DNA of 64,000 nt, from contig JAENWW010000001.1 in NCBI GenBank assembly GCA_016649875.1, positions 124,001 to 188,000 of the forward strand, read 5' to 3'. This stretch comes from Coriobacteriia bacterium (GTDB taxonomy: Bacteria > Actinomycetota > Coriobacteriia > WRKU01 > JAENWW01). This document shows positions 1 through 53,940 of this stretch, one piece after another (within the stretch, counting starts at the first letter, position 1; every line of letters begins with the position of its first letter). Both the position numbers and the translations under genes were made by a program. The notes beneath the pieces were generated by a model. That model did not search any database. It had not been told where the DNA came from and saw only the letters and a program-made list of their open reading frames with translations.

Positions 1-1459
1 CGGTAAAGAACCCACGTTCGGTGGCGATTTTTTCGAAGAGCGGATTGACCTCGACGAGGCGATCTTTGTCCATGACGGTGCGCACATAGGAGACGGCGAA
101 CAACGGCTCGACTCCGGATGAACACGAAGCGATTATAGAGAGTGTGCCGGTCGGAGCTATGGTGGTGACGGTCGCGTTGCGAATGGGCTCGGCGCCTTTT
201 TTGTCATAAATCGAACCCTTGAAGTTGGGGAACGCTCCGCGCGCTTGTCCCAAAATACGCGACTCGGCTTTCGCCTCGTCATCAATGAATTTCATGAGCT
301 TTTCGCCGAGAGCGACCGCCTCTTCGGTGTTATAGCCGATGCCGAGGCGGATGAGCATATCGGCCCATGCCATGACACCGAGACCGACCTTACGGTTGCC
401 GCGAACGAGCTTGTCGATTTCGGGCAACGGATAGTTGTTGACCTCGATGACGTCGTCGAGAAAATGGATCGCTCTGTGCGTGACATCTTTGAGCTTGTCC
501 CAATCGACTTCGAGACCTTTCTTGCCCTCTTTAAGCATGCGTGACAGATTGATGGAGCCCAGGTTGCACGCTTCATACGGGAGCAACGGCTGCTCGCCGC
601 AGGGGTTGGTCGCTTCGAATTCTCCGAGTTTAGGCGTCGGGTTTGCGCGATTCATGCGATCGATGAAAATGATGCCGGGGTCGCCTGTCGCCCACGCGAG
701 ATTTATGATGAGGTCATAGACCTCGGCGGCGTTCAACGTGCCGGCCGGCTTTTTATCGCGAGGATCGTAGAGTGTGTAATCGGTTCCCGCTTTGACGGCG
801 CGTATGAATTCCTCAGTGATTGCAACGGATATGTTGAAGTTGGCGAAATCACCGTTTTCCTTGCAGGTGATGAACTCCATGACATCGGGATGGTCGATAC
901 GCAGTACGCCCATGTTGGCGCCGCGACGAGTGCCACCCTGCTTGACCGCTTCGGTCGCCTGATTGAACACACGCATGAAGGACACGGGACCGCTTGAAAC
1001 ACCTTGGGTGGTGCGAACCGAGGCTCCCGATCCGCGAAGACGCGAGAATGAGAAGCCCGTGCCTCCACCCGACTTGTGGATGAGCGCGGTGTCACGGACG
1101 GCACCGAAGATTTCTTCCATCGAGTCGCCGATGGGAAGCACGAAGCAAGCGGAAAGCTGTTGAAGATCGCGACCTGCGTTCATGAGCGTCGGCGAATTGG
1201 GGAGGAATTCGAGATTCGACATGAGACGGTAGAAATCCGCGGCGGTTCTCTGGGCGGTTTCCTCATCGGCTCCGAAAAGAATCTCTGCAGAAGCGATATT
1301 TTCCGCAACGCGATCGAACATATCGCTCGGTTTTTCCACCGCGTTGCCCTCCTCATCTTTTTTGAGATAGCGGCGTTTTAGAACCGTCAACGCATTCGGA
1401 GTGAGCAGCGTATCGACCTCACGTGTGAAGCCGTTTTTCGTTGTTGCTTTTTTAGCCAT
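1..1459 (-). CDS. nrdJ: Vitamin B12-dependent (class II) ribonucleotide reductase, C-terminus cut off by window edge
   Basis: Reduces ribonucleotides to deoxyribonucleotides in the cytoplasm with an adenosylcobalamin radical. About 486 residues from the N-terminus are visible, and the frame is still open at base 1. The sequence has the class II signatures [16 protein letters not shown], the segment [14 protein letters not shown], and the active-site motif [18 protein letters not shown] with the catalytic Cys at about residue 287. [18 protein letters not shown] segment follows nearer the window edge. The ATG at 1457-1459 is preceded by GGAAGG at good spacing. Its upstream region carries two NrdR-like boxes. 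A B12-independent class III enzyme is encoded at 54052, so the two are probably alternatives. The family call is confident. The tail with the redox-active Cys pair cannot be seen. Confidence 0.93.
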
Positions 1460-35473: not shown

Positions 35474-35738
35474 GATTACCTCCTAATATAAAAGAACACG
35501 ACGTCTGGCGCAGACATCTATATTACCAATTTATCGGAGGTTACCCCCCAAATACGAAGACATAGGGCGAAAGGGAATCGTCATTCCTGTGAATGGCAAA
35601 TAGAGGCTGAAATTACGGTTTAGACGATCTTGCTCCCGATAAACCGCAGTGCATCTGAGATTGATATGTTCACACTTCCCGCACATTTACTCTATAAACT
35701 CTTTACGCGCCTTTCATTATGACTCCACAGCCCATCTG

Positions 35739-35744
35739 TATAGT
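35739..35744 (+). promoter_or_regulatory. Possible -10 element for the small RNA
   Basis: TATAGT lies about 40 nt before the first hairpin. A -35 at usual spacing is weak (TTATGA, 16 nt). An alternative TTCACA-18-TATAAA pair lies about 50 bp further left. The exact 5' end is therefore uncertain. Confidence 0.3.
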
Positions 35745-35750
35745 AAACAG

Positions 35751-35930
35751 TGTAGAAATGGAAATCAATCCAGCTCCCGACCAAGCAGGTGGTGCTGCCT
35801 GGAAAAGAGATCGAGCAGGTGGTGCTGCTCGAAAGCCCCTTGCCTGAGGCGAATGTGGTGATTCACCTCAGGACATTTTCTTCATAGTATTGCCGGAAAA
35901 ACGCTGCCAAGAGACGGGCGGCGTTTTTCT
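35751..35930 (+). ncRNA. Putative small RNA: three hairpins with an identical GTGGTG loop plus terminator
   Basis: In the 530-bp gap between nuoA and tRNA-Thr, three consecutive inverted repeats each present the same six-base loop GTGGTG. Hairpin 1 is 35781-35802 (CCA, one mismatch, GCAG, loop, CTGC, mismatch, TGG). Hairpin 2 is 35811-35832 with a perfect 8-bp stem TCGAGCAG / CTGCTCGA. Hairpin 3 is 35843-35872 (CCTGAGG, one mismatch, GAAT, loop, ATTC, mismatch, CCTCAGG). The stem of hairpin 3 is unrelated to the others, yet the loop is unchanged. A strong intrinsic terminator follows. I know no named family with this layout. A short open frame crosses it but lacks a start and homology. Direction plus is favoured by the terminator T-run; the 5' end is a guess. 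Confidence 0.55.
35897..35928 (+). terminator. Intrinsic terminator of the three-hairpin RNA
   Basis: A 12-bp stem AAAAACGCTGCC / GGCGGCGTTTTT (one T-G pair) with an 8-nt loop is followed by CTTTG. The A-run on the left means it could also work leftward, but no gene ends there from the right. Confidence 0.85.
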
Positions 35931-36007: not shown

Positions 36008-36083
36008 GCCGATGTAGCTCAGTTGGTAGAGCACTTCACTCGTAATGAAGGGGTCAGGAGTTCGAGTCTCCTCATCGGCTCCA
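36008..36083 (+). tRNA. tRNA-Thr (anticodon CGU)
   Basis: A complete cloverleaf. The acceptor arms are GCCGATG and CATCGGC, the D-arm has GCTCAGTTGGTAGAGC, and the anticodon arm CTTCA-CTCGTAA-TGAAG puts CGT at positions 34-36, reading ACG threonine codons. The T-arm is AGGAG-TTCGAGT-CTCCT, with T as discriminator and CCA encoded. A -10-like TAGAAT lies at 35992-35997. Confidence 0.97.
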
Positions 36084-36107
36084 TGTTCTTTCTCAAGCAC
36101 GCGGCTG

Positions 36108-36476
36108 CCGCCTAGTCGTGATATAGGCGAGGATTATCAGACAATCTTAAGCAAGAAATGGCGAGGAGAGGTCCGACGACAGCTGAAAGCCCAGCATGTT
36201 TGGACCAAGAGTCGGGAAAACACCGTGCTTCGCATTATCACTCGTGAAAGCGGTGGAAACCAGACGGCACGCAACGGAAGCTGCGTGGGGCTCCTCCAGT
36301 TCAACAACGGCTGGAAACATACCTATTCGAAAGCGTATTTCAAGAAGAAACATATCAAAGGTGCGTACCGCAAAGACGCACGACTCAGTGGCTCTTGGAG
36401 CATCCGCAGAGTGGCGCTCGTGTATAAAGTGGGCGGCAACGCGGCGGTTCGCAGGCACTGGATAGCAACCATTTAG
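36108..36476 (+). pseudogene. Remnant of a secreted lysozyme/transglycosylase-like protein
   Basis: An open frame encodes about 120 residues whose middle reads VLRIITRESGGNQTARNGSCVGLLQF, with the Glu-Ser-Gly-Gly and Gly-Leu-Leu-Gln-Phe pattern of lysozyme-fold lytic transglycosylases (catalytic Glu in RESGGN). A weakly conserved C-terminal region with WSIRRVALVYKVGGNAAVRRHW follows. There is no signal peptide, no ribosome-binding site and no sensible start codon; the open frame runs backwards into the tRNA gene. The N-terminal half is therefore missing and the gene is probably dead. A non-canonical start cannot be excluded. Confidence 0.5.
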
Positions 36477-53681: not shown

Positions 53682-53720
53682 TTGACAGCCCAAAACCCAT
53701 GCGCGTACTATATAGGGTAC
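53682..53720 (+). promoter_or_regulatory. Promoter of nrdDG with NrdR-box-like sequence over the -10
   Basis: A consensus -35 TTGACA (53682-53687) and a -10 TACTAT (53706-53711) are 18 nt apart. The -10 is embedded in GTACTATATAGGGTAC (53705-53720), which matches the NrdR core CwAtATaTwG at 8 of 10 positions. A second palindrome, CAACATGTTG, matching 8 of 10, begins its box at 53737, 32 bp away, as in paired NrdR sites. That second element also forms stem P2 of the riboswitch, so its match may be accidental. The promoter is firm; the NrdR sites are tentative. Confidence 0.6.
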
Positions 53721-53940
53721 TTACGGTTCCCAACTACCACAACATGTTGGGTTAAAAGGGAAGTTTGTCAGGGATTTCACCCAATTCAAACGCTGTCCCC
53801 GCATCTGTAGGTGCTTGTTTTGTCCGATCAAGCTGCTCATAGAGTTGAGCGCGGTCACTGGATTGTATTCCGGGAAGGCTACCTGGACAAAACGCTAAGC
53901 ACAAGCCAGAAGACCTGCCGGATAAGTAACCATAGTATGC
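53718..53940 (+). promoter_or_regulatory. Cobalamin (B12) riboswitch in the nrdDG leader
   Basis: The aptamer landmarks appear in order: P1 GGTT (53725-53728) pairing with AACC (53928-53931), P2 CCCAAC / GTTGGG (53729-53734 and 53746-53751), AAAAGGGAA, the GCTGTCCCCGCATCTGTAG segment (close to the consensus GCUGcCCCCGCAACUGUA), GGTCACTGG, and the B12 box AAGCCAGAAGACCTGCC (53903-53919, consensus AAGYCAGGAGACCUGCC). Binding of cobalamin should repress the gene downstream. Here that is a B12-independent reductase, matching the known logic in Streptomyces, where such a riboswitch controls the class I enzyme. Confidence 0.93.

Follow-up and report, generated by a model that had tools for sequence, protein, structure and literature searches.

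In an uncultured gut-type actinobacterium, a gap of 534 bases separates nuoA (minus strand, start 35473) from tRNA-Thr(CGT) (36008-36083, + strand). One six-base sequence recurs there as the loop of three neighbouring hairpins, which raises the question of whether the locus encodes a functional RNA and what its repeated loop might bind. It was analysed as part of the window, the whole 64 kb stretch of DNA under study. A sequence-only reading had proposed a small RNA (sRNA) here, with three hairpins sharing an identical GTGGTG loop and a 12-bp terminator. All three hairpins were found exactly where it had placed them, while the terminator turned out to have 14 pairs. The elements are as follows, with counterparts in L002, the nearest relative (see below):

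35781-35802, + strand: hairpin 1 (H1), CCA-A-GCAG[GTGGTG]CTGC-C-TGG, loop GUGGUG at 35789-35794; absent from L002
35811-35832, + strand: hairpin 2 (H2), TCGAGCAG[GTGGTG]CTGCTCGA, loop at 35819-35824; counterpart of L002 hairpin A
35843-35872, + strand: hairpin 3 (H3), CCTGAGG-C-GAAT[GTGGTG]ATTC-A-CCTCAGG, loop at 35855-35860; counterpart of L002 hairpin B
35895-35930, + strand: intrinsic terminator, 14 pairs including G-U, then UUUUUCUUU

On the plus strand, 35751-35930 folds far better than its dinucleotide shuffles (z = -4.96). Counting hexaloop hairpins with stems of at least 4 bp, none of 20,000 such shuffles contained even two hairpins with one loop, where three are observed, and H1-H3 form the sole shared-loop hexaloop cluster of this kind within the 64 kb window; on these two grounds, chance is excluded for H1-H3. 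A 15-base direct repeat (AGCAGGTGGTGCTGC) is common to H1 and H2, so that their stems are not independent within the window genome, and with this partial duplication the within-genome argument from different stems rests mainly on H3. The layout that the sequence-only reading had described for H1 and H3, with one mismatch between a 4-bp top stem and a lower stem, is present in both, the mismatch being A-C on the plus strand and a would-be G-U pair on the minus strand.

Relatives were found via NuoA. The nearest, L002, belongs to an uncultured Coriobacteriales MAG (genome G001; NuoA 85% identical) from the same family as the window genome (G000) but another genus, the family being sampled by two genomes altogether. 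A homologue of the sRNA lies between nuoA and tRNA-Thr(CGT) of L002, so that the layout nuoA / sRNA / tRNA-Thr(CGT) is common to both genomes. The single-sequence model R1, built from the window, matched this homologue with E = 1.6e-11 among 15 loci, and with E = 1.8e-10 when the whole G001 genome was searched. Its hairpins are:

L002 hairpin A: GAGCAGAU-GUGGUG-AUCUGCUC, 6-base loop
L002 hairpin B: AAGCGGA-GUGGUGA-UCCGCUU, 7-base loop

All five hairpins of the two genera carry GUGGUG unchanged, and the loop is six bases long in four of them, while the closing pairs differ among the GUGGUG hairpins (G-C, U-A, A-U). Comparing the stems of H1, H2 and H3 (W1-W3) with that of L002 hairpin A (LA), 93% of cells pair and 6/7 stem pairs have changed on both sides; slid controls for this four-hairpin comparison all collapse. 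The two-species alignment (A5) shows 11 pairs changed on both sides. A5 was fitted to the model and has helix 1 out of register, so the four-hairpin comparison and the raw sequences were given more weight. The sequence-only reading had staked its case on a relative with GUGGUG loops and covarying stems, and the L002 homologue has both: GUGGUG is kept and the stems differ, as expected of a changed stem with a fixed loop.

Conservation between the window and L002 extends to several elements outside the stems:

35681..35699, strand not given: upstream block GCACATTTACTCTATAAAC, 18/19 bases identical with L002
35711..35729, + strand: block CTTTCATTATGACTCCACA over the -35 region, conserved in the L002 alignment
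35739..35744, + strand: candidate -10 box TATAGT, identical in L002 and at equal spacing
35749..35759, + strand: AGUGUAGAAAU, presumed sRNA 5' end with a putative start site, 11/11 identical with L002
35836..35842, + strand: linker CCCCUUG, candidate base-pairing seed, identical in L002
35875..35887, + strand: AUUUUCUUCAUAG 5' of the terminator, 12/13 bases identical with L002

The stretches conserved outside the stems are GCACATTTACTCTAYAAAC, CTTTCATTATGRCTYCACA, TATAGTA, AGTGTAGAAAT, CCCCTTGC, ATYTTCTTCATAG and the terminator; the L002 RNA keeps the -10 box, the 5' end, the CCCCUUGC linker, the UUCUUCAUAG stretch and the terminator. Within the linker, CCCCU is predicted to be largely unpaired in both species, and the last two bases often pair in the window RNA. 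As regards an independent gene, a strong terminator and a conserved -10-like box stand beside a poor -35: the -35 candidate ATTATG (35716-35721), 17 bp 5' of the -10, matches poorly, and a consensus promoter scan returned no sigma-70 site at 35711..35729. Block GCACATTTACTCTATAAAC may belong to the promoter of the sRNA or to that of the divergently oriented nuoA. No long reading frame is common to both species, and the longest frames over the hairpins are short and unrelated by eye.

At the nucleotide level, searching first 60 and later 200 relatives returned the window itself only, the rest being short chance matches. R1 gave nothing convincing outside the family over 150 Coriobacteriia genomes, where weaker matches (E >= 0.02) lacked the repeated loop, and the two-sequence model R2 likewise gave no convincing homologue outside the family in 38 and 400 Coriobacteriia genomes. 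With both models negative there, the RNA is family-restricted among the genomes searched; the model search that had been proposed to check the candidate thus succeeded in one family only and failed across the Coriobacteriia genomes scanned. R2 matches at E ~0.0007 or higher were rejected as resting on generic terminators or long stems, and none of the ten R2 loci checked had a GUGGUG hairpin of at least 4 bp. The single-hairpin model R3, run on both genomes, recovered the five known hairpins and weak others, with no further significant GUGGUG hairpin. Other tandem GTGGTG copies in these genomes fell mostly within long open frames and never formed two hairpins of at least 4 bp. Rfam gave nothing near threshold in the sRNA region or the L002 homologue, its matches in the window being tRNA and a distant cobalamin riboswitch only, which agrees with the earlier statement that no described family fits. 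Viral contigs had no match to the sRNA, and a literature search found no bacterial GUGGUG-loop sRNA. The region looks like a genuine small RNA that is restricted to the family and has not been described before; that it is a small RNA, as first proposed, is supported by the L002 homologue with the same loop and changed stems.

The sRNA is very probably encoded on the plus strand, where the order of -10-like box, conserved 5' block, hairpins and terminator fits a gene. A functional RNA on the minus strand, which would carry CACCAC-loop hairpins in a long nuo operon leader or act as an antisense RNA, is improbable. In its favour, the mismatch in H1, that in H3 and another directly beside the stem of L002 hairpin B, each A-C on the plus strand, would become G-U pairs, and the minus strand folds with slightly lower z (-5.58 and -5.14 vs -4.96 and -4.32 on the plus strand). 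That all three mismatches are A-C on the plus strand has a chance of 0.008 if ten mismatch types are equally likely, but nearer one in eight if they arise as single transitions from paired bases. Against the minus strand, the conserved -10-like box and 5' block stand at the 5' side of the plus-strand RNA and the terminator at its 3' end, a terminator U-G pair kept in both species would become an A-C mismatch, no conserved promoter-like sequence was seen on the right side in the L002 alignment, and a minus-strand transcript would need to read through the terminator right at its start. The direct repeat in H1 and H2, which implies that duplication produced one hairpin or more, might instead hint that there is no functional RNA at all and that the hairpins are DNA-binding-site inverted repeats or a decaying repeat element. 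This is hard to credit: the loop centre is non-palindromic and stays fixed between species whose arms covary, the hairpins are flanked by conserved elements (promoter-like sequence and terminator), and the other strong genome copy of GCAGGTGGTGCTGC falls inside an open reading frame.

As to what the RNA does, the reading that I favour is that it titrates a protein, to which I assign a probability of roughly 0.45. The main rival, which I regard as a tentative but serious candidate, is a trans-acting base-pairing sRNA whose CCCCUUG pairs with AAGGGG ribosome-binding sites and/or whose loops pair with CACCAC-type mRNA sites. In its detailed form, held just as tentatively, the G/U-rich loops would act like the G/U-rich region of GcvB, with the hairpins giving stability and presenting seeds. 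C-rich seeds acting against Shine-Dalgarno sites are a common mode of Hfq-independent Gram-positive sRNAs (RsaE/RoxS, FsrA), and the conserved linker, unchanged between diverged stems and exposed in CCCCU, is left unexplained by titration. An AAGGGG ribosome-binding site is moreover kept in both genomes at three gene pairs, one of them like ribosomal protein S1. A linker seed, however, has no need of a fixed loop length, total loop identity and free stems, G-rich loops are unusual in mRNA pairing, and the AAGGGG matches span just six bases that are themselves ribosome-binding sites. A scan of both genomes for AAGGGG-N(3-10)-ATG gave these three orthologous pairs and no conserved extended complementarity, and neither supports nor excludes base pairing. 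It is scarcely probable that the loops bind a structured RNA, either tRNA ACCA 3' ends (complement UGGU) or the 16S rRNA 3' end (AUCACC): UGGU occurs in five hairpins and GGUGAU, the complement of AUCACC, in three, readable from the loops, but complements of 4-6 bases are common by chance, and neither covariation nor neighbouring evidence accompanies them.

As a separate observation, the rpsA-like gene (ribosomal protein S1; G000:C6:45753 = L257, G001:C69:5747 = L179) keeps AAGGGGTCCACATG exactly. The CCACAU within it complements AUGUGG atop H3 and L002 hairpin A, possibly by chance.

Returning to protein titration, 35750-35930 would be transcribed as an independent plus-strand small RNA of ~180 nt, its hairpins would be binding modules in which the stem serves only to display GUGGUG, and with two or three such loops of six bases a single RNA could sequester several molecules of an RNA-binding regulator away from its mRNA targets. 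A loop that is fixed in sequence, and nearly always in length, on drifting stems is what hairpins recognised by proteins show (ANGGAN in the case of CsrA). It suggests that the loops bind one and the same partner repeatedly, a regulatory protein being the likeliest, possibly in a CsrB-like mode. A Pfam search found no CsrA (PF02599) in G000 and G001, control genomes being positive, and no Hfq (PF17209) in either. No further significant GUGGUG hairpin was found in the two genomes. Titration would lead one to expect mRNA targets that carry this motif, and that none was seen speaks against it.

Exactly one ANTAR protein is encoded in each of G000 and G001, the response regulator PdtaR, whose gene adjoins that of a PdtaS-like sensor histidine kinase (G000:C10 = L077; G001:C60 = L076). 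Proteins with an ANTAR domain recognise hexaloop hairpins, and sRNAs titrate them in Mycobacterium, Listeria and Enterococcus. For these reasons PdtaR would be the most plausible partner in the window genome; that the titrated protein is PdtaR specifically is nonetheless doubtful. It resembles M. tuberculosis Rv1626/1s8n (E = 1e-48) and EutV (E = 1e-40) and keeps the EutV RNA-contact residues K143, R168, M172 and R175 and an aromatic (Y/F) at 164. Most other genomes of the order have no ANTAR domain (4/14 have one). ANTAR genes do occur, however, in relatives without the sRNA (G002, G012), which speaks against the link.

ANTAR hexaloops follow the pattern AxxGxx (PMC3369931, PMC8934654). In the EutV-RNA structure the sole base-specific contact is with G4 of the hexaloop, and the minimal motif is one hexaloop (PMC8934654); M. 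tuberculosis PdtaR is titrated by a small RNA in which three hairpins have been described (PMC8131098). Loop A1 is conserved and needed in the eut ANTAR-target RNAs (PMC3369931), and in actinobacterial ANTAR-target predictions it is found in over 50%, not 100% (PMC8164766). Set against the features of an ANTAR target, H1-H3 provide the two hexaloop hairpins required (6 bases each; in L002, A has 6 and B has 7), G4 is present in 5/5 GUGGUG hairpins, both genomes encode an ANTAR protein with most RNA-contact residues kept, and position 1 is G in 5/5 hairpins. With G4 but G, not A, at position 1, GUGGUG falls outside the ANTAR-target definition; an ANTAR-like way of working may nonetheless apply. 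It is rather unlikely that the sRNA and an RNA-binding protein, another one or a re-specialised ANTAR, work as a global titration pair in place of CsrB/CsrA. GUGGUG would then be, equally speculatively, a recognition loop used by no described sRNA-protein pair, in a lineage without CsrA and Hfq.

Among known systems, ANTAR-titrating sRNAs (EutX, Rli55, M. tuberculosis PPE1-5') share with this RNA several hairpins, hexaloops with G4 and a PdtaR-type ANTAR response regulator, here the sole ANTAR in the genome. They differ in that the loops here begin with G1 rather than A1 and are all identical, that binding is here only presumed, and that no riboswitch or mRNA leader is attached to the sRNA. 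CsrB/RsmZ likewise have repeated hairpins with the same short loop, an intrinsic terminator and an intergenic gene, and GG at loop positions 3-4 recalls ANGGAN; the loop here is GUGGUG rather than ANGGAN/GGA, and CsrA is absent from both genomes. RsaE/RoxS and FsrA offer a conserved unpaired C-rich stretch (CCCCUUG here) able to pair with ribosome-binding sites, in keeping with genomes that lack Hfq, but have no sequence homology by Rfam, and are not known to have a counterpart of the repeated G-rich hexaloops. The 6C RNA motif of Actinobacteria is similar in its tandem hairpins, fixed loop and actinobacterial intergenic location, whereas its loops are C runs, which occur on neither strand here, and Rfam gave no match.

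Descriptions of regulatory small RNAs in Coriobacteriia are few, and a brief paper search listed none that names the class. With a fixed recognition loop on covarying stems, such an RNA is a direct bait that can be tagged to pull out its partner. Should that partner be PdtaR, a third deep lineage would join those in which sRNAs titrate ANTAR regulators, and the case would reveal how much drift the A1/G4 loop rule tolerates.

Some observations concern the wider locus. In termite-gut relatives (e.g. L003, L007, L009, L010, L011), tRNA-Thr adjoins nuoA and GTGGTG hairpins are missing, so the neighbourhood predates the sRNA or lost it. Cobalamin riboswitches were identified by Rfam at 53707-53938 (+ strand) of the window and 977-1179 (minus strand) of L002, with 88 and 93 bits; the L002 copy lies ~1 kb from the sRNA and <1 kb from tRNA-Thr and the window copy ~18 kb off, so gene order differs there. 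At 36100-36476 of the window, 3' of tRNA-Thr, a reading frame matches a lytic-transglycosylase-like protein. In L002 this protein begins with an ATG of its own plus a signal-peptide-like segment, while the window copy seems to be without that start. A hairpin-like element, GCCGCCTA..TAGGCGAGGATT, which has no Rfam match, is conserved 5' of this frame in both the window and L002.
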